A model generated the notes under the pieces. It made no database searches, was not told where the DNA came from, and worked only from the letters and a program-made list of their open reading frames with translations. A stretch of 64,000 nucleotides of DNA from Bacteroidota bacterium (GTDB lineage Bacteria > Bacteroidota > Ignavibacteria > UBA10030 > SZUA-254), in NCBI GenBank assembly GCA_020056225.1, contig JAGVIE010000050.1:1-64000 (forward strand). The letters run 5' to 3'. A program made the position numbers and the translations under genes. Positions 7,001 through 48,907 of this stretch are shown piece after piece (positions within the stretch are counted from its first letter, which is position 1; every line of letters begins with the position of its first letter).

Positions 7001-10000
7001 GGTATTTCAGGAAATTACTATTGTTTAGTACGGACTGATACCGGAAACGCCGTGAGTGACAGCGACATCCTGAATAATCTTGGCTATTCTCCATCTACGA
7101 TAGCCATTGTTCTTTCACCGCCACCCGATCTCCACGTCGCATCCTTCTTGGCGCCGAGTAATGGTCAATCAGGACAGCCGATCACAGTTCAATGGACGAT
7201 CCAAAACAGTGGATCGGGACAAACACTCGTTCCATCATGGAATGATGCAATCTATCTTTCGAGCGATATCTATCTCGATCCTGTCGATACAAGACTTGGA
7301 ACGAAAACACGAAACGGTGTACTGCCCGCCAGTCAATCGTATAGTGATAGTCTCGAAGTCGTGATACCGAATTACGCATCGGGTGATTTGTTCCTCCTAA
7401 TGCAGACCGACAGCAAGAACGAAGTCTTCGAACAATCGGGTGAAGGCAACAATGTTCTCAGTCGACCGATTACAGTGAATATTGCGGCGCCTTCCGATCT
7501 TATCATCTCAAACATCGCAGTTCCGGATAGCGCAATATCAGGCGAGGATGTAACGATCTCGTGGACAATTCGAAATCAAGGAGCAAACCCCGCAACGGGT
7601 TGGATTGATGACGCAGTCTATCTTTCTTCCGATCAAACGTGGGAAGTAACCGATCCGGTTTTTGGAATCTATAGAAGAAACATCAACCTCGCACCCGGCG
7701 TTTCTATGGAAGCTAGCGTGAAGGCAAAGATCGATCAAGCGTTCTTTTCCGACTCTGCAGGAAACCTCACCGGTCCAGTGCCCGGCTTCGCACCGGGAAA
7801 TTACTACGCGATTGTACGAACGGACATCCGTAACTACATCCACGAGAGCACTGAAAATAACAATGCGGGAACATCGACAGGAACAACCCGCATCGATGTC
7901 CCGACGCTTCAACTTGACATCCCAACAATAACGTCACTCACCGAAGGGGAACAAAAATATTTCCGGGTGAACGTGACTGCGGGACTAACACTCAAGATCA
8001 CACTCGACGGCAGCGCACCGTCCGGCAGTCTTGAAATGTACGGACGATTTGGTGCAGTACCCTCAAGGTCGCAGTTTGATGTTGCGTATACAACAGCATT
8101 CTCCCCTGATCAGCAGATAACGATCCCCGAAACGAACACTGGCACCTATTACATTCTGATCTTCGCCGATCGTGTTGCGGGCGATTCTATCGTGGCGACA
8201 ATTCTCGCTCAGGCAGTCTCGTTCGGCATCACCTCGGTATCACCGGCAAGAGGAGGAAATTCAGGCGAAGTGACAATGATGATTGAAGGCGCCCGTTTCG
8301 TAACGGGAAGCACAGTAAAGCTCATCGGTTCAGGCGGTGCACTGCCAAACCTCATCAAGAGCACTTTCATCGACGCGTCACGGATCGATGCGACGTTCGA
8401 TCTGACAGGCAATCTCCCTCTTGGCGCATATGATGTTGTTGTCCGACGTCCGGATAATTCAGAAGCCACTCTTGCCGGCGGATTTACACTGGAGCCGGGG
8501 AAAAACATGACTGCAAACTTAGGCTTCGCACCCCCAAGCGCAATCGCGCGTGGTGGATCGGGATTTTACTCAATCTCCGTCGAGAACACTACTAATATTG
8601 ATCTTCCCTTCATGACTGTATACATCATCATACCGTCAGGACAAGGTTACAATGTCAACTCGAATAACATGCAAACTCTTAGTCAGCTTCTCCCTGACAC
8701 ACTCAAGAGCGTTATTCATCTTCAGAATCATTTTGACGAGGGATTTTGGCGGTTCGTACCGCTGACTGCGAGAAATGTCCGCGTTGGTCAACGGTTAAAC
8801 ATTGCACTTCAGGTGAGCGATGTTCAGGGAACCGAATTCCCGATCCAGATTGCTGTCGATGCTATTGACCGAAAAGGATTTGTCGAGGGACAACTTCTCT
8901 ATCTCGAATTGTTCCGTCAAGCGCTCCTGAGAGACACGAGCGGTAAATTCGCTCCTGAATTCTACAACCTCGCACAGACTCCACAGACGTTCCTCAACAC
9001 ACTGATGCAAGTTTACGTCGATCTTGGTATTCTGACAGCATCGGACATTTCGCTTGTTACTTCTAAACAGCTTCAGGAAACTGTTAATAAAGTTTCTCGT
9101 CTTCCGCTCGATCAGAAAAAGCTTAAAGCTGTGTTCAGACCGATGCTCACTTCGTGCGAGAACGAGTTGAATTGGCTTGAGCTTGGCGGAAGATTAGCCA
9201 TCATCGCCATTGGATTGGTGACGGGCGCATTACTTGCACCGGTGGCTCTTGGCGTCGGAGCGGTTCTTGCCGTTATTAGCGGGCTTGGCTTGGGTATGAA
9301 TATCGGCGCGATCATCAATGGCTCACCCGGACTGATGTCAAGAATATTCTGCGACGATCCCCGGACGCCCACTCCCGTTATCGCGTCGAAAGATCCAAAC
9401 GACATTATGGGTCCGGCCGGTTATGGAGAAAAGAAGTGGGTAGCCGTCACGCAGACGATGACCTACACGGTGCGATTTGAAAACGATCCGAAACTCGCAA
9501 CAGCTCCCGCTCAGACCGTCAGCGTCAACATGGAAGTTGACAGCACGCTGGATGTTCGTTCATTCCGTCTTGGTAACTTTGGGTTTGGGAGTTTCACATT
9601 CAACGGTGCGGATAACCGGTCGCACTACTCAAAGCGGTTGGATGTTCTTGACTCGCTCAGCATATATGTTGATGTCAGCGCCGGAATCGATGTAGATAAG
9701 AATAAAGCTTTCTGGATATTCAAATCCATCGACCCGGCAACGGGAGAACTTCCGTCCAATCCGCTTTCCGGATTCCTTCCCGTCAATGATTCGCTCCATC
9801 ATGGCGAGGGATTTTTAACATTCTCTGTCAAGCCTAAAGCAACTTCACGTACAGGTGATAGCGTACATGCGAAAGCGCGTATCGTCTTCGATGTCAACGA
9901 TCCGATCGATACACCGCCTATATTCAACACGATAGATGCGGGTTTACCGTTCAGCAGTGTGCGCTTGCTTCCGCCCATCACTAAAGATACAACATCCTTC

Positions 10001-39377: not shown

Positions 39378-40282
39378 GTTAGATGTTTCCCAAAATATTC
39401 CAGCAATTTTTGCCCGTATTCTTTTCCTGCAATATCCCACATGTTGTTGTGTGACGCTCCATGGATTGGGAAAATCTCTTTTGGCTGGTTCGCTTTTTCA
39501 AAAAGCATGAGCGAGTATTGATGCTTGATTAGATGATCGTCTGTGCCGTATACGATCAGTATCGGGATGTGAATTGTCTGTACGGCTTCGAGCGGTGAGA
39601 CTTCACGTGCTTTAAATTTTGCCCGTAATTCCGCGTGAACGATCACGAGATTCCTAAGGTAATGGAACGGCAGTTTTATCATTCTCTTTTGATAATCATC
39701 GAAGATGGTGCGGAGTGTGGCAAATGAATTTTCAGAAACGACCGCAGTTATACGTTTATCTATTGCGGCGGCTTGAATCGCGACTGCCGCTCCCATCGAT
39801 GTTCCGAACAAACCGATTTTACCAAGCTCGATATCTTTTCTTGCCGCAAGGTAATCGATGACGCGTGAGACATCGTGTTTTTCATAGAAACCATAAGTAC
39901 AATAGTTGCCGCCGCTTTTCCCATGCCGGCGCGAATCATAAAGGAAGATGTTGAAGTGATTATCGTGCATCAACTTGGCGAATCGTATTCCGTCTATTTT
40001 GCAATCGGCAACACCGTGCAAGTAAATGATTGTTCCCTTGACAGGCGCGGCGGCTTTGATGAGCCATCCATCAAGTTTAATATTATCAGTGGTGGTGATA
40101 ATGATTTCTTCGCAAGTTAGATCCATTTCGGATGGCACGGTCGGTAGACCAAGCTTTTGATAAAATTCGGCGTTTCTTCTTCTCGGTTGCAGGAGAAGCG
40201 TTGGACCGACAACGAAAAGAATAATTGTTGCCGAAGCTAAAAACGTAAATAACGCTATTGCAAGCGCTATGAATAAAACCAT
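39374..40282 (-). CDS. Membrane-anchored alpha/beta hydrolase
   Basis: A 302-residue protein with an N-terminal membrane helix (residues 3-30) followed by an alpha/beta hydrolase domain. The oxyanion region is IIYLHGVADC, the nucleophile elbow is GTSMGA, the acid is in YGTDDHL and the histidine is in HGASHNNMW, so the triad is complete. The DSRRHGKSGG segment is typical of the BEM46/YqkD-like group of hydrolases. Its TGA overlaps the ATG of the M28 peptidase by four bases (ATGA), so both are translated from one message. A joint role in peptide or ester turnover in the periplasm is possible but not shown. Confidence 0.85.
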   Translation of the reverse strand: MVLFIALAIALFTFLASATIILFVVGPTLLLQPRRRNAEFYQKLGLPTVPSEMDLTCEEIIITTTDNIKLDGWLIKAAAPVKGTIIYLHGVADCKIDGIRFAKLMHDNHFNIFLYDSRRHGKSGGNYCTYGFYEKHDVSRVIDYLAARKDIELGKIGLFGTSMGAAVAIQAAAIDKRITAVVSENSFATLRTIFDDYQKRMIKLPFHYLRNLVIVHAELRAKFKAREVSPLEAVQTIHIPILIVYGTDDHLIKHQYSLMLFEKANQPKEIFPIHGASHNNMWDIAGKEYGQKLLEYFGKHLT

Positions 40283-40403
40283 GCTTTACCTTTATGTTGG
40301 AGAGGATTCATTGCTATTACAGCAACTTCACAAATATATGAAGCGATTGTTTGGAATGCAAGACTTATCAAAGAAGTTTAACTTTTAAGAAGGTAAGGTG
40401 GAT

Positions 40404-40432
40404 TTGACAAAAGATAGTACAGTGATTATATT
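40404..40432 (+). promoter_or_regulatory. Strong promoter candidate of the cas operon
   Basis: TTGACA at 40404-40409, a 17-base spacer and TATATT at 40427-40432 match the sigma70 consensus better than any other site seen in the window. The start of transcription would lie near 40439, leaving about 110 bases of leader before the first cas-like frame. Confidence 0.6.
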
Positions 40433-40450
40433 GAACGATAGTAAAACAAA

Positions 40451-40519
40451 CCCCCTAGGTGAAGGACGTAAGGCAAAAGCCTACGGTAGATATCAACAGA
40501 GCAACTGTCTTTTAGGGGA
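40451..40519 (+). ncRNA. Possible structured leader RNA of the cas operon (three-way junction)
   Basis: Three stems can be drawn. P1 pairs CCCCTA (40452-40457) with TAGGGG (40513-40518). P2 pairs 40467-40474 with 40479-40485, seven base pairs with one bulged A and an AAAA loop. P3 pairs ACAG (40496-40499) with CTGT (40505-40508). Together they would form a three-way junction directly downstream of the promoter and upstream of the cas3 relic. I do not recognise a known riboswitch class. It was compared mentally with c-di-GMP-I and rejected. It may be a regulatory RNA, the remnant of something else, or chance pairing. Confidence 0.35.
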
Positions 40520-40549
40520 TTGAATTTCTCATCCTCATTGGGATAACAC

Positions 40550-40732
40550 ATGTTTTTTGCGCATTCTGAAAATACGGCAGGGACGAAACATATTCTAAAG
40601 GATCACCTCGAAAGCACTGCGGATATTTGTCGGTTGTTTGTACCATCTGCAAAGTTTGAGCAGTTGTTCTATCTTGCAGGGTTGGTGCATGATGGGGGAA
40701 AATTTCAGGATGGATTTCAAGTTATAGGGTGA
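40550..40732 (+). pseudogene. Relic of a cas3 gene: N-terminal HD domain fragment
   Basis: A 60-residue frame that starts MFFAHSENTAG, continues KDHLESTADICRLF and reaches LAGLVHDGGKFQDGFQ before a stop. These are the opening motifs of a type I-C Cas3 HD nuclease, which normally continues for some 700 residues. The usual HDxGK form is kept as HDGGK. The remaining HD ligands and the helicase are absent, and only 41 bases separate the stop from cas5c, so the rest was deleted. It occupies the position where cas3 stands in standard I-C operons. It differs in sequence from the complete Cas3 at 44438, so it is not a partial duplicate of that gene. Confidence 0.75.
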
Positions 40733-40773
40733 ACAAATGAAAATTATATTCAAACTATGTATAGGAGACTTTT

Positions 40774-41397
40774 ATGAGTCCACAAAATAAATCTTATGAA
40801 GTTCAATTTGAGATTGCGGGAACGGCGGCTATGTTTACCAGACCTGATACTGGGGCAACGCCGGTTTCTTATCCTGCGCCAACATATTCAGCGGCAAAGG
40901 GAATGTTCGAATCCATTGTGCGATTGAAAAGTGCACATATTAGACCGACGAAAGTTGAGATATGTGCGCCGATTCATTATCACCGTTACACAACCAATTA
41001 TGGTGGACCACTAAGAAAAAGTAATCAATTGAGCAAAGGTAGTTCATATCAACTGTTTGCCACTATCCTTGTAGATGTTTGTTATCGTGTTTACGGCGTA
41101 GTGGAAGAAATAGAAAGAGCGCCAATAGATCGCACAACAAACCACTTACATTACCTTCAAGATAAATTTGAAAAACGACTTCGTAACGGTAGATGGTATC
41201 ACGTACCTTGTTTGGGATGGAACGAATTCACTCCATCATATGTCGGACCATTTCGTGAAACAACCAAAGTGGAAGAATCTGTTGAGCAGATTATTCCGTC
41301 AATGCTTTTTTCTGTTTTCAGCAGGCCGGGAGTTTACTCTCCGTCATACAAGCAAGACGTTTGGATAAAGAAAGGAGTTCTTGAATATGTTGAATGA
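40774..41397 (+). CDS. cas5c: Cas5c, type I-C CRISPR RNA-processing and Cascade subunit
   Basis: In type I-C systems Cas5 replaces Cas6: it cuts the pre-crRNA and stays on the 5' handle. The 207-residue product shows MFTRPDTGATPVSYPAPT, SAAKGMFESIV, and VEICAPIHYHR, then a Cas5c-like LQDKFEKRLRNGRWYHVPCLGWNEF block. An AGGAG precedes the ATG. By eye the position that holds Lys in the known Lys-His pair of Cas5c (for instance KH in the Bacillus halodurans enzyme) reads LH here (NHLHYLQDKF), which is doubtful and needs alignment. Its 3' end overlaps the start of cas8c by 11 bases. No cas6 is present, as expected for type I-C. Confidence 0.82.
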   Translation: MSPQNKSYEVQFEIAGTAAMFTRPDTGATPVSYPAPTYSAAKGMFESIVRLKSAHIRPTKVEICAPIHYHRYTTNYGGPLRKSNQLSKGSSYQLFATILVDVCYRVYGVVEEIERAPIDRTTNHLHYLQDKFEKRLRNGRWYHVPCLGWNEFTPSYVGPFRETTKVEESVEQIIPSMLFSVFSRPGVYSPSYKQDVWIKKGVLEYVE

Positions 41398-43522
41398 AGG
41401 ATATGCTCTTCATAAAAGTCTGGAACGATGCGGAGTGCGGCTTATAAATCGACATCCAGACGTAAAAGAACCAGGTAAGAAGGATGGATTAATTGTCGGA
41501 TTAGATAAAAAAGGGAAAATCGTCAGAATAGAATACCGAAAAGCCGAAGACATCTCCAATCTGTGGACGACAAGAGAGGGAATGCAAAATAGCTTTCCGG
41601 TATTAAAACTACAACACCCCTTATGGAAGATCAGCCAAAACGATCCGCTTCGAAAAAAGCTTATCAATCTGAATGCAGATGAAATAGAGAAACGCAAACT
41701 GCTTAACCACCAAACTCATAGATTGAATATCTCATTAACTGAGAAAAATTGGTGGAATAGGCTACAAGAACGGGTCAAAATTTTACATCCATTTTTTGAA
41801 ACAACAAATAAAGATTATATGGCATTGTACGAGTTGACCAATCGTTATCTTCTTGCGAAAAAGGTCAATGATTTTGCTGAAGAATTATTAAATAAGGTGA
41901 GAAAACTTCAAAAAGAGATTCCATATACTCTTTATGAGAATATTTTAATAGGCAATATATATAAAGCAAAGGACAAAGGATATCGTGCGGAGATTCCACT
42001 TGTGCTTGATTTGAGCGACTGGGAAAAATATTCAGTGCGAGTTGCCAGTCCCAAGATGGAGCCCTTTGTAAATGAGTGTTTATTCAAGATGCAAAGCCCT
42101 GATTTAGTTGACGACAATAAGGCAAGTGACAACGTATCGCCAAGTGCATTATCGGGTAGCAAGGTACAGTTAGAAGATGATAAGTTTCCAAATCCTAAAT
42201 TACCAATAATAGGAAACACTTATCTTTTTTCTGTAAACGATCAAACGCCTTGTCAAACTCGATATAAAAAAACCAGCACAGATATTATTTCTATCGGGCG
42301 CCAAGAAGCAAACAAAATTCAAGACTCTCTAAACTGGATTACGAGTAAAGAACGAAAAGGAAAAACATGGTATCCCATACCAGGGTTGAATGAGGGCAAA
42401 AGCGACTTACTTATCACTTATCTTGAGAACAAACCCAATCTTAATGTGAATAAGGCATACTTGTTAGGTGGTATTAGTAAAAATGATTTTAGTGACAGTA
42501 CATATGAAGCAATATCCAGTGTAGCAATCGACGCTTTAAAAGGTGAACAAATTGTGCGAGCAAGCGACCTCATTAGAATCTTTTCTCTTCGTAAAGCCGA
42601 TCCGGGACGTACACAGGTATCTTTGCAGCGAGTTTATACAATTTCTAATCTCGTACAAGCTGATAAGACATGGAGGGAAGCAGCACTAAATGTCCCGAAT
42701 ATTTCTTTGCCTTTCTTCCGCAAAGAAATTGAAAAGACAATTGCCAGACAAGAAAATATTGCTGTGTCAATTTCGCAATTTCTCGCAGATAAAGAATTGA
42801 AAGCAACTTTTCTCTCACCAAGTTGTCCTTTCCCCGCCGATCTTGTTCAACTTACACAAAAGCAATGGATACGATTTGGAGAAGATTCTACTTCGGTATC
42901 TGGCGTTGCACTTGGAGATTTGTATGATATCTTTTTTGCCCACGGAACTATTGAAAGAAGTCTGGCGGAATATTTGTTAAGTATAACACTTCAACGTACA
43001 CAAGCTATACTTATTGGACTTGGACAGGCAGATCATAAAAACGAGATATATACAGTTAAGCCCGAAGCACGATTTACAGTATTAAAGACAATTTCAGCAT
43101 TTGCTATTTACTTATACAAACTCGGAATTAAAAAGGAGAATTATATGAAGGATACATTTTTCTATGTCGGCAGATTTCTGTCGCTGATTGATATATTACA
43201 TTTAGAATACTGTAAGAATGTTCGTGGTGGAAACATACCGCCACAACTTTTAGGAAATGCCCATCTTCAAATCGCGCTGGACAATCCAGTCTCAGCACTT
43301 GATATACTATCGCGGAGAATAAATATATATCAGGCGTGGACAAGAAAAGAGCAAGGAGAACAAGTTAAATTAGCACGATGGTCAGTCGGGCAACTTGGAA
43401 AAATTTCAACCTTACTTGCTGAAAAATCTCTGCCAATTTGCACGACGAATGTTGATAGGGCCCAAATTCTTTTAGGTTATTTAGCCAAATCGGAAGAGAT
43501 CCTTGAAGAAGAAAAAAAATAA
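41387..43522 (+). CDS. cas8c: Cas8c-like large subunit of type I-C Cascade
   Basis: The 711-residue product stands between cas5c and cas7c, where the I-C large subunit (Csd1/Cas8c) belongs, and is somewhat longer than usual. Individual motifs are weak. It is assigned by position, size and the C-terminal region, which reads like the Cas11c part (see the internal start at 43145). ATG 41387 is chosen, with GGAG at 41374-41377 nine bases before it. An in-frame TTG at 41381 is less likely. PAM recognition and R-loop stabilisation are the expected roles. Base composition is low in G+C (20 of 60 in 42481-42540 by hand count). Confidence 0.68.
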   Translation: MLNEGYALHKSLERCGVRLINRHPDVKEPGKKDGLIVGLDKKGKIVRIEYRKAEDISNLWTTREGMQNSFPVLKLQHPLWKISQNDPLRKKLINLNADEIEKRKLLNHQTHRLNISLTEKNWWNRLQERVKILHPFFETTNKDYMALYELTNRYLLAKKVNDFAEELLNKVRKLQKEIPYTLYENILIGNIYKAKDKGYRAEIPLVLDLSDWEKYSVRVASPKMEPFVNECLFKMQSPDLVDDNKASDNVSPSALSGSKVQLEDDKFPNPKLPIIGNTYLFSVNDQTPCQTRYKKTSTDIISIGRQEANKIQDSLNWITSKERKGKTWYPIPGLNEGKSDLLITYLENKPNLNVNKAYLLGGISKNDFSDSTYEAISSVAIDALKGEQIVRASDLIRIFSLRKADPGRTQVSLQRVYTISNLVQADKTWREAALNVPNISLPFFRKEIEKTIARQENIAVSISQFLADKELKATFLSPSCPFPADLVQLTQKQWIRFGEDSTSVSGVALGDLYDIFFAHGTIERSLAEYLLSITLQRTQAILIGLGQADHKNEIYTVKPEARFTVLKTISAFAIYLYKLGIKKENYMKDTFFYVGRFLSLIDILHLEYCKNVRGGNIPPQLLGNAHLQIALDNPVSALDILSRRINIYQAWTRKEQGEQVKLARWSVGQLGKISTLLAEKSLPICTTNVDRAQILLGYLAKSEEILEEEKK
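43145..43522 (+). CDS. cas11c: Cas11c small subunit from an internal start in cas8c
   Basis: Inside cas8c, AAGGAG at 43133-43138 lies six bases before an in-frame ATG at 43145 (residue 587 of Cas8c). Translation from there gives 125 residues, MKDTFFYVGRFLSLIDILHL to the natural stop, a helical protein of the size known for Cas11c. Separate production of the small subunit from inside cas8 is established for several type I-B, I-C and I-D systems. Here the strong binding site in the correct place supports the same. It would line the target-strand belly of Cascade. Whether both products are made is not proved by the sequence. Confidence 0.72.
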   Translation: MKDTFFYVGRFLSLIDILHLEYCKNVRGGNIPPQLLGNAHLQIALDNPVSALDILSRRINIYQAWTRKEQGEQVKLARWSVGQLGKISTLLAEKSLPICTTNVDRAQILLGYLAKSEEILEEEKK

Positions 43523-43562
43523 AAAACCAAACTTTGTTTAACTAACTAATTGGAGAAAAACC

Positions 43563-44441
43563 ATGTCAAAGACAATACAAGAAGAAGTTATTAATCGAGC
43601 CACAGGGCTGTTGATTATTGACGTTATAAATTCCAACCCAAACGGTGATCCAGATAAAGAAAGCGATCCTCGCCAAAGATCAGATCAAAAAGGAGAGATT
43701 TCGCCGGTTTCTTTTAAGCGAAAGCTTCGAGATCTCATCGAAGACAAGGATGGACCAGTATGGAAAAAAAATGAAAAGGATGCTTCGTTGAACCAAGATG
43801 AGTTTTTCATTCTTGAAAGCCGGGGACGAGATCGTGGTGAAATTAAGAAACTGCTTGAGAAGAATCCCGATGCATTTAAGAATAAATACTGGGATGCTAG
43901 GATTTTTGGTAACACTTTTCTTGAAGAAGGAGCATCAACAAGTATCAAAACAGGTGTTATTCAGTTTGGACTAGGAATTTCTGTAGCTCCAGTACGAATC
44001 GAGCGCATGACGACGACCAATAAGTCTGGAGTTGAAGAAGGTAAAGACCGTGGTATGGCACCGCTAGGTTATCGAATAGTTGAGCACGGAGTTTATTGCA
44101 TGCCCTTTTTTGTCAACCCTACGGCTGCCATTAAAACCGGATGCACTAAAAAAGATATTGATCTTCTCTTAAGAGTCATTCCACATACCTACAAACACAC
44201 AGCATCATACATTAGAAGCAATGTGGATATAATTCATGCTTGGTATATTGAACATAAGTCTCCGCTGGGTTCTTGTTCCGACTTTGATTTGATTGCAGCG
44301 TTGACTCCAAAGAAGAATAATAAGCCCGAAGAACCCTCAACATCAAGAGCCGATTATACTCCAATACCGACAGAACAGAATGTACCGGAAGAACTTCGAA
44401 AGAAAGTACTTCCGATTAGAGATTTAATGAAAGAAATATGA
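43563..44441 (+). CDS. cas7c: Cas7c backbone subunit of type I-C Cascade
   Basis: A 292-residue RAMP-type protein that coats the crRNA spacer. Its opening GLLIIDVINSNPNGDPDKES is the signature of the Csd2/Csh2 Cas7 family. The segment DARIFGNTFLEEGAS and then IQFGLGISVAPVRIERMTTT and the later MAPLGYRIVEHGVYCMPFFV are also typical. TTGGAG 8-10 bases before the ATG is a good binding site. Its stop overlaps the cas3 start as ATGA at 44438-44441. The C-terminal region is charged and less conserved. Confidence 0.88.
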   Translation: MSKTIQEEVINRATGLLIIDVINSNPNGDPDKESDPRQRSDQKGEISPVSFKRKLRDLIEDKDGPVWKKNEKDASLNQDEFFILESRGRDRGEIKKLLEKNPDAFKNKYWDARIFGNTFLEEGASTSIKTGVIQFGLGISVAPVRIERMTTTNKSGVEEGKDRGMAPLGYRIVEHGVYCMPFFVNPTAAIKTGCTKKDIDLLLRVIPHTYKHTASYIRSNVDIIHAWYIEHKSPLGSCSDFDLIAALTPKKNNKPEEPSTSRADYTPIPTEQNVPEELRKKVLPIRDLMKEI

Positions 44442-46684
44442 TGGCTGTGTTGCTTGCGCATAGTGCGGGCAAGAATCCACCTGTACCGCCTCAGCCTTAC
44501 TTGACACATGTTTCAAATGTATTGCGTCGGGTAATGGAGAATACCGAGCGTCTTTCTCCGTACTACGGAGGCGATCTGAATTACTTCCGTGAAGCTGTAA
44601 GGGCGTCAGCCATCTTTCACGACTTGGGAAAGTTGGATGATGAGAATCAAAAAATTCTTTTACGTGGCGGTGGAAGAGGTTTGCCCGTGAATCATGTTGA
44701 TGCTGGAACTGCAAACTTGCTTGCGAACGATTTGGCGGAATCAGCTCTCATTGCTTATGCACATCATATTGGGTTACAGTCGATTCCTGAAGAGCGAGCA
44801 AAGGAAGAATTGTTTCTACGCGATCCGAATTTGGTTACTCGGACAGAACAGTATCTTGCGGATTATCTTTCAAAGCATATTAATTCGGGGTCAGGAAAGT
44901 TAGAAAAAACAGCAGATGGTGTTTCTGATTGGACCGGATTAACACGACGAATAGCTCTCTCATGTTTAGTAGACGCGGATCATGGAGATACAGCACACAA
45001 TTACCAACAAGAATTCCCCGTATCACATCCATCTCCAAGATGGAAAGAGCGACTTGAAAAACTTGATGAATATGTAAAAGGGCTGATAAAAGAATCGAAT
45101 CCTAATGAAGAAAGGAATCGGCTTCGTCAACAAATATATCAATCTTGTCGTGATGCAGATACAACTCCTTCTTTTTATGCATGCGATAGTCCAGTTGGAA
45201 CAGGTAAAACAACGGCGGTCATGGCTCATCTTTTAAGAATGGCGATAGATAAAAACCTTCGTCATATTATTGTTGTGTTGCCATACACAAACATCATCAA
45301 ACAATCTGTTGAGGTTTATCGAAAAGCACTCGTTTTGCCAGATGAGAACGCTGATGAAATAGTTGCAGAACATCATCATCAAGCAGATTTTGATGATCTC
45401 AATACCCGTCAATTAGCAACGCTATGGAAATCGCCGATTATTGTAACAACAGCAGTTCAATTCTTTGAGACCATAGCAAGTAATCATCCGTCAAAACTCA
45501 GGAAACTTCACGAACTTCCCGGAAGCGGTGTCTTTATAGATGAAACACACGCGGCGATACCGTTTCATTTATGGCCTCAAACGTGGAAGTGGTTGAAAGA
45601 GTTCTCAGAGAAATGGGATTGTTATTTTGTATTTGCGTCCGGCTCGCTTTCGAGATTTTGGGAATTGAAAGATATGATTGAAGAGCCAGAAATAATTCCA
45701 GATTTGGTGTCGAAGCAATTACGAGAAGAGGCATTACGCCAGGAAAGAAAACGAATTATACCTGTCCGACATCCATCTGTATTAAACGATACAGAATTAA
45801 TTAACCTCGTTCTTAGCAAGCCAGGTCCCCGATTGGTTATTATGAACACAGTTCAATCAGCCGCTGTGCTTGCGGATAGATTAGCAAAGAAGATTAATGG
45901 AAAAGAAGAATATACAATAGATGTACATACTTCAAAGGTATTGCATTTGTCTACTGCTCTATCTCCAATTGATAGAGAGGTTATCGTAAAAAAAATCGAA
46001 GAACGGCTTGCTTTACCAATTGACAATTCAAGAAGAGATTTCACACTTGTTGCGACAAGTTGTGTTGAGGCGGGAGTAGATTTTTCTTTTCGTTCGGCAT
46101 TTCGTGAACGTGCCGGGACAGCAAATCTTATTCAGATAGGAGGTCGGGTTCGTAGAAATAATGAAGACTTTGAACCGACACTAATAGACTTTAGGATCGA
46201 AGCACCTCTTTTTAATCGTCATCCTGCTTTTACTTTGTCGAGTCAAATATTGGAAAAATTGTTTAACGAAAACAAGGTTGAATCAGACCCACCTGCTGAC
46301 CTCGTTACAGAAGCATTGCGGAGAGAATTGATGTCAGATACCAGTGAAAGACATAAAAGATTGCAAAAGATGGAAAGAGAAATGGATTATCCAGAGGTAG
46401 CAAAATTATATCAAGTGATTTCGAGTAACACTATTCTTGTTTTAGTAAATCAACAAATAATAGAGAATCTTAAGAAGAGAGAAAAAGTATATCCAAAAGA
46501 AATAAATCGCAACAGCGTACAAATTTGGATGAATAAAATTGGGAAGACTTGTGCTTATCCACTGGATGCATTTCCCGGTCTATATGGATTAGACAAAGAT
46601 AATTATGATAAAACATTTTTGGGGTATATGAAGGGAATGTTGCAACAATTAAAACAAGATTCTGAGGGTGGTGGAGTGATCTAA
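44438..46684 (+). CDS. cas3: Cas3 HD nuclease-helicase, complete
   Basis: A 748-residue Cas3 that degrades target DNA after Cascade binding. The N-terminal HD domain has THVSNVL (first His), FHDLGK (residues 60-65), NHVDAGT and AYAHHIGL. The SF2 helicase has Walker A GTGKTTAV, DETH Walker B, the FASGS motif III and QIGGRVRR as motif VI, preceded by SCVEAGVDF. All essential motifs are intact. It sits between cas7c and cas4, not at the head of the operon as in typical I-C loci. Its N-terminus is unlike the relic at 40550. Two ATGs stand at the start (44438 and 44441). Confidence 0.9.
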   Translation: MMAVLLAHSAGKNPPVPPQPYLTHVSNVLRRVMENTERLSPYYGGDLNYFREAVRASAIFHDLGKLDDENQKILLRGGGRGLPVNHVDAGTANLLANDLAESALIAYAHHIGLQSIPEERAKEELFLRDPNLVTRTEQYLADYLSKHINSGSGKLEKTADGVSDWTGLTRRIALSCLVDADHGDTAHNYQQEFPVSHPSPRWKERLEKLDEYVKGLIKESNPNEERNRLRQQIYQSCRDADTTPSFYACDSPVGTGKTTAVMAHLLRMAIDKNLRHIIVVLPYTNIIKQSVEVYRKALVLPDENADEIVAEHHHQADFDDLNTRQLATLWKSPIIVTTAVQFFETIASNHPSKLRKLHELPGSGVFIDETHAAIPFHLWPQTWKWLKEFSEKWDCYFVFASGSLSRFWELKDMIEEPEIIPDLVSKQLREEALRQERKRIIPVRHPSVLNDTELINLVLSKPGPRLVIMNTVQSAAVLADRLAKKINGKEEYTIDVHTSKVLHLSTALSPIDREVIVKKIEERLALPIDNSRRDFTLVATSCVEAGVDFSFRSAFRERAGTANLIQIGGRVRRNNEDFEPTLIDFRIEAPLFNRHPAFTLSSQILEKLFNENKVESDPPADLVTEALRRELMSDTSERHKRLQKMEREMDYPEVAKLYQVISSNTILVLVNQQIIENLKKREKVYPKEINRNSVQIWMNKIGKTCAYPLDAFPGLYGLDKDNYDKTFLGYMKGMLQQLKQDSEGGGVI

Positions 46685-46687
46685 TAT

Positions 46688-47314
46688 ATGTACTCCGAAG
46701 ACGACTTCATACAACTCAGCGCTCTGCAACATTACGTATTTTGCCCGCGGCAATGTGGGTTGATACATGTGGAAGATGTATGGGCGGATAACGTCTTTAC
46801 CGTGCGCGGAGAAATCCTGCACGAAAAGGTGGATACCGATACGTACGAAACGCGAGGCACGCTGAAAACGGTGCGTGGGTTGAGAATCCATTCAACACGA
46901 CTTGGCATTGTTGGTAGGTGCGATGTTGTAGAATTTCGAAAAGGTAAGAGCGAACAGGAAGAAGTAATGCCTGTGGAGTTTAAGTCTGGCGAACCCAAAG
47001 AAGATGTGAGTGATAAGGTGCAGTTATGCGCGCAAGCATTATGCTTAGAAGAAATGATGAACACGCAGGTGAAGCGCGGAGCGTTCTTCTATGGTAAAAT
47101 CCGACGTCGTGTTCAGGTTGAGCTTGATGACGAACTAAGAAAGCAAACAGAAGAGATCATTGCTGCCGTGCATGAGATTGTCTCGCAAAAGAAAGTGCCT
47201 GCGGCTCGTTACAATGAGAAATGCAGAAATTGTTCTCTCGAAGAAACGTGCATGCCAAAGGCAATGAATGAAAGAAAACTTCATAAATATATTGAAACCT
47301 TGTATCAGCCATGA
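46688..47314 (+). CDS. cas4: Cas4 nuclease of spacer acquisition
   Basis: A 208-residue RecB-type nuclease with the iron-sulfur motif of Cas4: one cysteine group in HYVFCPRQCGLI near residue 20 and three cysteines in CRNCSLEETC near the end. The PD-(D/E)XK core reads GRCDVVEF, then MPVEFKSGEP with Glu and Lys. It trims prespacers and helps choose PAM orientation for Cas1-Cas2. It starts four bases after cas3. G+C rises sharply from here (34 of 60 in 46801-46860, against 19 of 60 in 46381-46440 of cas3), so the adaptation genes probably have a different history. Confidence 0.9.
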   Translation: MYSEDDFIQLSALQHYVFCPRQCGLIHVEDVWADNVFTVRGEILHEKVDTDTYETRGTLKTVRGLRIHSTRLGIVGRCDVVEFRKGKSEQEEVMPVEFKSGEPKEDVSDKVQLCAQALCLEEMMNTQVKRGAFFYGKIRRRVQVELDDELRKQTEEIIAAVHEIVSQKKVPAARYNEKCRNCSLEETCMPKAMNERKLHKYIETLYQP

Positions 47315-48339
47315 AAAAACATCTCAACACACTCTATATTACTTCTGACGATGCCTATGTCCACAAAGAACGGGAAACATTTGTTGTGGAGGTGAACAAC
47401 GAAAAAGTCTTTCAAGCTCCTGTTCACTCGATTGAGAATATTGTCTGTTTCGGTTTCAAGGCGCTGAGTCCGCAACTGATGGCATTTTGTGCGGAGAATA
47501 ATGTTGGGATTAGCTATCTTTCGGAGAACGGAAAGTTTCTTGCGCGCGTATATGGCGCACAAAAAGGAAATGTTCTTCTGCGGAAAGCACAGTATGCTAT
47601 TTCTGACAACGAAATGGAATCCCTTTCAATTGCAAGGCCAATAGTTGCGGCGAAGGTGGCTAACTATCGCAGTTTGCTGCTTCGCCATCAGCGTAATCAT
47701 CCGAATGAATGTCCTGATTCAGTTGGATTAACGGCGGAGACGATGGGATGCCGACTGATGGAAATTCAAAGATCGGAATCATTGGATGGACTCCGCGGTT
47801 ACGAGGGTGAATGTGCGGCGTTGTATTTCGGAGTGTTGTCGGCACTTATCACGGTTCAACGGGAAGATTTCATATTTACTGGTCGAACGAAACGACCGCC
47901 TCTTGATCCTGCGAATGCTCTTCTTTCGTTCTTGTATGCAATTTTGGCAAACGATGTGAGGTCGGCACTTGAGACAACCGGACTTGATCCGCAGGTAGGT
48001 TTCTTGCATCAACTAAGATCGGGAAGACCGAGTTTAGCGCTCGATCTTATGGAAGAATTCCGGGCATATCTTGGCGACAGGATAATGTTGAATCTCATTA
48101 ATCTAAAACAAGTGACAAAGGATGATTTCGAAATTCGTGAATCTGGGGAAGTCCGCATGTCTGACGATGCGAGAAAGACAGTGATAACCGCATATCAGAA
48201 GCGCAAACAGGAAGAGATCACACATCCGTTTTTAGACGAAAAGATGACAATTGGTTTACTGCCACACATTCAAGCACAACTTCTCGCAAGATACATACGA
48301 GGAGATATTAAAGAATATCCACCATTTTATCTTAAGTGA
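47311..48339 (+). CDS. cas1: Cas1 integrase of type I-C
   Basis: A 342-residue Cas1 that inserts spacers into the array. The fold is recognisable from the N-terminal LYITSDDAYVHKE strand, GLRGYEGECAALYFGVL with the metal-binding Glu, LDPANALLSFLYAIL (with the Asn-Ala-Leu-Leu-Ser-Phe block), GLDPQVGFLHQLRSGRPSLALDL with His, and DLMEEFRAYLGDR with the third acidic ligand. Its ATG overlaps the Cas4 stop (ATGA). The sequence is the standard I-C type Cas1 and is better conserved than the effector proteins upstream. Confidence 0.93.
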   Translation: MKKHLNTLYITSDDAYVHKERETFVVEVNNEKVFQAPVHSIENIVCFGFKALSPQLMAFCAENNVGISYLSENGKFLARVYGAQKGNVLLRKAQYAISDNEMESLSIARPIVAAKVANYRSLLLRHQRNHPNECPDSVGLTAETMGCRLMEIQRSESLDGLRGYEGECAALYFGVLSALITVQREDFIFTGRTKRPPLDPANALLSFLYAILANDVRSALETTGLDPQVGFLHQLRSGRPSLALDLMEEFRAYLGDRIMLNLINLKQVTKDDFEIRESGEVRMSDDARKTVITAYQKRKQEEITHPFLDEKMTIGLLPHIQAQLLARYIRGDIKEYPPFYLK

Positions 48340-48346
48340 AATCGCT

Positions 48347-48637
48347 ATGATGGTTCTAGTAAGTTATGATATGTCAACAAAGACAGCAGGCGGGGTTCGT
48401 CGGCTTAGAAAAATCTCGGAGATGTGTTTGGATTATGGATTGCGTGTACAAAATTCGGTGTTTGAATGCAATGTTGATCCGGCGCAGTGGGAAATTTTAA
48501 AGGATAGATTGTTATCTTTGTATAATGCGGAAGAAGATAGTTTGAGATTTTATTATCTTGGATCGAACTGGAGACGGAGAGTAGAACACAATGGCAAAGG
48601 TGTGATAGATGATATTGAGGAACCAATAATTGTATAG
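48347..48637 (+). CDS. cas2: Cas2
   Basis: A 96-residue Cas2, the dimeric partner of Cas1. It opens MMVLVSYDMSTKTAGGVRRL with the usual beta strand and Asp, continues GLRVQNSVFECNVDP, and ends in IIV. ATG 48347 is chosen, eight bases after the Cas1 stop. A second ATG follows at 48350. A longer in-frame extension into cas1 (from 48251) is not real because it overlaps Cas1 and lacks Cas2 sequence. The CRISPR leader follows directly. Confidence 0.93.
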   Translation: MMVLVSYDMSTKTAGGVRRLRKISEMCLDYGLRVQNSVFECNVDPAQWEILKDRLLSLYNAEEDSLRFYYLGSNWRRRVEHNGKGVIDDIEEPIIV

Positions 48638-48807: not shown

Positions 48808-48907
48808 GTCGCGCTCCGTACGAGCGCGTGGATTGAAACCAGATCAGGCGAAATCTTGAAAAGAAGAAAAATCTTGTCGCGCTCCGTACGAGCGCGTGGA
48901 TTGAAAC
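48808..48907 (+). CRISPR. Minimal CRISPR array, two repeats and one spacer (type I-C repeat)
   Basis: Two identical 32-base repeats are at 48808-48839 and 48876-48907 with a 36-base spacer at 48840-48875. The repeat holds a seven-pair stem (CGCGCTC and GAGCGCG, loop CGTAC) and ends TGGATTGAAAC, the 11-base 5' handle expected after Cas5c cleavage. It is the type I-C repeat form, in the orientation expected from the cas genes and leader. Beyond 48907 there is no further repeat. The GTGTGGATTCGAT around 48938 recalls the repeat end but is out of register. The array is real but very short, or shortened by deletion or assembly. Confidence 0.93.

Follow-up and report, generated by a model that had tools for sequence, protein, structure and literature searches.

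Type I-C CRISPR (clustered regularly interspaced short palindromic repeats)-Cas loci have the standard gene order cas3-cas5-cas8c-cas7-cas4-cas1-cas2. Here we describe a locus that departs from this order, in a 64,000-nucleotide stretch (the window) of contig C5 of a 3.5-Mb Ignavibacteria genome (GCA_020056225.1), where the start of one cas3 gene precedes cas5 and a complete, dissimilar cas3 follows cas7. Very probably, the resident standard effector module was replaced in situ by a foreign cassette of a type I-C variant with the effector order cas5-cas8-cas7-cas3, which we call VAR, and the stump of the resident cas3 remained as a scar. All features of the locus described below lie on the + strand.

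Exchange of effector modules in situ behind fixed adaptation modules is established (review PMC6452270), has been traced within subtypes I-A, I-B, I-D, and I-U with boundaries at the nucleotide level in a study that also describes I-C Cas4 as monophyletic and compact (PMC5704561), and figures among the main trends in the 2025 classification (PMC12669027). The window case resembles the replacements described there in that adaptation genes are kept, effectors are replaced en bloc, and flanking synteny allows the boundaries to be drawn; such replacements are known within a single subtype as well. It differs from the within-subtype search of PMC5704561 in belonging to I-C, in its differently ordered cassette, and in the truncated resident genes that stand as scars. 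In the literature covered, with supplements and subscription papers outside its scope, we found no description of an I-C case, a reordered cassette, or widespread gene stumps. An earlier note on this DNA, made from the sequence alone, had proposed that such a replacement would show that Cas3 and Cascade can be swapped in vivo; this is true when the module is taken as a unit, but it is no novelty, being already present in the same 3 papers.

The stump (40550-40732) is an open reading frame of 60 residues that matched the HD-domain model TIGR01596 (2.2e-7, profile positions 1-50 of 178) and PADLOC Cas3c (2.4e-10). It comprises approximately 57 N-terminal codons of the resident standard cas3, followed by 3 unrelated codons and a stop, and it ends just past the HD motif, with the remainder of the nuclease domain and the entire helicase missing. 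Its best match was the standard Cas3 of G484 (74 bits, 64% identity; G and L numbers are our labels for genomes and loci), whereas against the complete Cas3 of the window it scored 1 bit in phmmer, and about 1 bit against variant Cas3s generally. The complete Cas3 (44438-46684; PADLOC Cas3c 5e-97) carries both HD and helicase motifs (HDLGK at residue 61, GTGKTT at 254, and DETH at 368). The 2 dissimilar Cas3 sequences reported in the earlier note, an HD-domain start before cas5c and a complete protein after cas7c, were thus confirmed, and the best match of the stump to the G484 standard Cas3 supports its view that the original cas3 was lost and that the stump is its relic.

At the DNA level, the locus is a mosaic. 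Positions 40508-40742 resemble G484 (L137 2232-2472, 64%) from approximately 50 bases 5' of cas3 to codons 57-62, including the resident leader upstream of the old cas3 start (40508-40549), and the likeness of the stump to G484 cas3 stops after TTTCAA. Positions 40763-46710 resemble the VAR locus of G597 (68%-81%; the G597 locus lies on 2 contigs), and from 46687 on, the window resembles G484 once more, with 82% identity in cas4. Resident DNA therefore gives way to the incoming cassette in a left junction zone at 40743-40762, where the G484 match has stopped at 40742 and the G597 match starts at 40763, and the right junction zone spans 46685-46710 at the start of cas4. G484 supplies both the best Cas3 relative of the stump and the closest Cas1 (90%), and its Cas4 is 87% identical. 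Since a standard cas3 relic lies 5' of the cassette, the direction of the swap is from a standard locus to a VAR locus. No Rfam family was identified at 40280-40780 or in the window as a whole. An assembly error is an unlikely source of this architecture because the same gene arrangement, with a stump that differs from that of the window, recurs in G294, a closed genome in a single 3.86-Mb contig.

Between the junctions, the cassette encodes cas5c (40774-41397; PADLOC Cas5c 1.6e-21), cas8c (41405-43522; PADLOC PDLC01562 6e-146), cas7 (43563-44441; Pfam Cas_Cas7 2.3e-51, PADLOC Cas7 6.8e-52), and the complete cas3 as its last gene, with a product 82% identical to that of G597 and 66%-69% identical to those of G294 and G004. 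A Cas3 alignment used to scan genomes of bacteria and archaea yielded 80 loci and, together with the class-level loci, 83 distinct annotated loci. The order cas5-cas8-cas7-cas3 was identified in 73 of these, distributed over 19 named phyla and unnamed ones, with the remaining 10 cut by contig ends; cas4-cas1-cas2 lay directly 3' of the cassette in 49. Because the order is conserved in 73 of 73 spanning loci, the Cas3 after cas7 is the native last gene of the VAR cassette, and its position calls for no cas3 insertion of its own. The earlier note had placed such an insertion between cas7c and cas4, which did not hold; its suggestion that the present Cas3 is of other origin, possibly brought with a new effector set, was supported. 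It is extremely improbable that cas3 alone was exchanged, with a foreign copy entering between cas7 and cas4 beside a retained I-C Cascade: although the complete Cas3 is indeed dissimilar to the stump, cas5, cas8, and cas7 of the window belong to the same variant set found in the same order with VAR Cas3 in the 73 loci, standard-order effectors of the G484 type are gone from the window, and the block common to the window and G597 runs from cas5 to cas3.

The locus shares with standard I-C systems (e.g., that of a Nitratidesulfovibrio vulgaris plasmid, L122) its gene set, the Cas5c, Cas7, and Cas8c families, Cas1c (TIGR03640 2.5e-144), the I-C type repeat GTCGC...GTGGATTGAAAC, and an operon without a separate cas6 between cas5 and cas2. 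In contrast to these systems, VAR has cas3 last in the effector module, a Cas3 clade of its own, a Cas5 merely 25%-27% identical to standard references, and a Cas8 (that of the window) without a match in NCBIfam or Pfam. We file the locus as a variant of type I-C because cas3 does not come first. The large subunit is already catalogued as I-C, as PDLC01562 (Cas8c of CAS-I-C) covers the window Cas8 over its whole length, but this model is silent on gene order, the associated Cas3, and replacement. A search of a plasmid collection with the window Cas8 returned no matches. Of the Lys-His pair that serves standard Cas5c in crRNA processing, the Lys is Asn in the window, and 88% of 72 variant Cas5 proteins retain a His (H126). 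A second cas5-like frame lies 3' of VAR cas3 at the contig end of L117 (10290-10616).

The cassette is followed in the window by the resident cas4 (46688-47314; TIGR00372 1.4e-40; 87% identical to G484 and G411 and 73% to VAR G597), cas1c (47311-48339; TIGR03640 match above cut-off), and cas2 (48347-48637; PADLOC Cas2c 3.7e-37). With the window Cas1 as query, 391 genomes of the class gave a sample of 32 genomes, whose upstream effectors were VAR (the window, G597, G581, G294, G004, and G333) or belonged to 3 dissimilar standard-order groups, which we name A, B, and C. Despite these differing effectors, Cas1 was at least 79% identical in 25 of the 31 other genomes, and the window Cas1 was 90% identical to that of G484 (group C) and 87% to that of G411 (group B), so that close adaptation genes stand beside dissimilar effectors. 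In the combined tree of cas4, cas1, and cas2, the 6 VAR loci are scattered one by one among standard loci and need 6 label changes, as many as with shuffled labels, and the window is sister to G484 and G411 (support 97/96). A single VAR clade was rejected on this tree (approximately unbiased test, p-AU 0.0033), as was a grouping of the window with G597 and G581 (p-AU 0.0002). In the Cas3 tree, VAR forms one clade with support of 100, and A, B, and C each form one clade. The adaptation and effector trees are in conflict. Regarding the earlier note's thought that congruent trees with this order as ancestral would speak against a replacement, the cassette does have this order as its ancestral one, yet the Cas3 and adaptation-gene trees are not congruent.

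We identified an independent swap of this kind in G294, which belongs to another family than the window, on the evidence of scars on both sides. Its stump best matches the group A Cas3 of G480, G051, G124, and G132 (95-106 bits), homology to standard cas3 continues beyond the stop codon of the stump, and directly 3' of its VAR cas3 lies a standard cas7 end in a stretch resembling G480 DNA (75%). Further, we screened 72 regions upstream of VAR loci (71 distinct) with standard Cas3 proteins. Real queries matched 20 regions, and reversed and shuffled control queries matched none, so chance resemblance does not explain the stumps. The matches of L089 and L100 were rejected as relics; they are WYL regulators, matched through a WYL fusion in the reference Cas3 of L128. 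After these 2 were dropped, standard cas3 relics stood 5' of 18 of the 71 distinct VAR loci, all on the cas strand, with 17 covering the Cas3 N-terminal part alone (best segments ending between residues 54 and 134) and 1, in L079, representing a standard cas3 copy with an internal deletion. Two further relics lie at contig edges (L062 and L075).

These stumps bear on the possibility of a small gene that is conserved and functional, such as one for a mini-HD protein or a cas5 leader peptide. The earlier note had named the same HD stub as a conserved small gene in related genomes as grounds against its own reading. Stumps do occur in related loci, both stumps in the class have open frames in which substitutions fall mainly at third codon positions, and several stumps adjoin or overlap the cas5 frame. 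However, stump lengths range from approximately 20 to 134 residues, some lack the HD motif, the class stumps are each nearest to a different standard Cas3 group, the stump is absent from the nearest variant relatives G597 and G581, and in G294 the homology runs past the stop codon. The codon pattern is shown equally by intact cas3; it mainly reflects the past of the stumps in an intact gene, and decay and constraint are not separable by this comparison. Given the differing lengths, the differing nearest Cas3s, and the absence from the nearest variant relatives, the stumps are independent relics, and we regard a small functional gene as very unlikely.

The route by which the cassettes entered is less certain. 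A tandem route, in which the VAR cassette initially entered behind standard cas7 and ahead of cas4, so that one adaptation module served 2 effector modules, and in which the older of these was subsequently lost save for the cas3 start, is a serious candidate, though somewhat the less favored one. L098 and L068 hold standard cas3, cas5, cas8, and cas7 5' of the VAR set with a single cas4-cas1-cas2 module and appear to be intermediates, and the internally deleted cas3 of L079 is accompanied by a standard cas7 5' of VAR cas5. In contrast, standard cas7 ends stand 3' of VAR cas3 in L032 (G294), L045, L085, and L101, and weakly in L118; such ends are not expected after insertion behind an intact cas7, and therefore at least the swaps in the first 4 loci look direct.

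Several additional observations concern the surroundings of these loci. Most extra cas4 matches in the gap 3' of VAR cas3 were rejected as fragments, being the leading end of the full cas4 open reading frame; apparently separate cas4 fragments were identified in L085 and L097 and, within the class, in G484, G561, and G371. In G484 (L137 7988-8188), the fragment consists of 67 codons 3' of cas7, is 87% identical to the full copy, and lies approximately 860 bases before it, with similar fragments in G561 and G371. In G597 (L140 2366-3645), about 9 codons resembling a cas4 start (MYTEDDFIR) follow VAR cas3, and approximately 1.25 kb with a frame reading NIKLFEQKQIQSVWNEAEQKRYF precede the full cas4. 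In L085 (11291-13963), the interval separating VAR cas3 from the full cas4 contains 2 ends of standard cas7 along with a cas4 fragment of 137 residues that shares 93% identity with the full copy, as if there had been 2 rounds of swap or duplication. In L128, an Allomeiothermus plasmid locus, a standard I-C Cas3 carries the WYL/WCX regulator as a fusion at its front end (7981-8970), and separate WYL regulator frames lie just 5' of VAR cas5 in L089 (4613-5212) and L100 (4542-5069). Two archaeal loci, L113 (4875-5057, - strand) and L121 at the matching place, have a standard cas7 end 5' of VAR cas5 on the opposite strand.

Under replacement in situ, the starting locus would have had the standard order, like present-day G484, and a foreign cas5-cas8-cas7-cas3 cassette would have replaced the segment that began near codon 58 of the resident gene for Cas3 and reached the start of cas4. 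The leader, the first 57 cas3 codons, cas4-cas1-cas2, and probably the array would have been retained; the 57 codons are too short for a nuclease but may still provide the operon promoter. The incoming Cas3 would work with its own Cas5, Cas8, and Cas7 and should read CRISPR RNAs (crRNAs) from I-C repeats of the family of the resident adaptation genes. From what is known of I-C, Cas5 is predicted to process crRNA (most VAR Cas5 proteins have the His, but not the Lys, of the standard pair), Cas8-Cas7-Cas5 to find the target, Cas3 to cut and unwind it, and Cas4-Cas1-Cas2 to add spacers. One I-C repeat family occurs across the class whatever the effector group, with identical repeats common to A, B, and VAR (G148, G411, and G004) and to A, B, C, and VAR (G364, G368, G228, and G333); therefore, an old array could in principle be readable to an incoming effector set. 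The window array (48808-48907) consists of 2 identical 32-nt I-C repeats with one 36-nt spacer; G294 and G004 have 38 and 95 repeats. The window repeat had no other occurrence in the genome, and its single spacer had no exact match in IMG/VR. The selective reason for such swaps may be anti-CRISPR escape, as proposed in PMC6452270.

Four points weigh against replacement in situ. Three quarters of the VAR loci have no cas3 relic, and for these the case depends on the tree argument, made in one class. The window stump is 64% identical to G484, which marks G484 as related to the recipient but distinct from it. The G484 array, against which retention of the resident array would be judged, lies past a contig end. 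The two-repeat, one-spacer array of the window gives no sign of present activity of the hybrid, which, with one spacer and a repeat found nowhere else in the genome, is doubtful there. We still hold replacement in situ by a VAR cassette to be very probable. A broader proposal, that I-C loci have an effector slot, a preferred exchange site from the cas3 start to cas7/cas4 that is repeatedly loaded with differently ordered cassettes while the same adaptation genes and array serve on and the first cas3 codons are kept for the promoter and start signals of the operon, is speculative and rather unlikely.

The locus clearly records, with junctions that can be read, a natural exchange of an entire Cascade-Cas3 set in which Cas4-Cas1-Cas2 were kept, in a subtype outside the within-subtype survey of PMC5704561 as far as its accessible text goes. 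For annotation, it serves as a warning that HD-only Cas3 fragments next to I-C loci are not necessarily genes and can be scars. Dissimilar effectors beside identical repeats within one class make it testable whether a new effector can use the spacers, and the choice of protospacer adjacent motif, that were made for its predecessor, and the same kind of swap recurs across many phyla.

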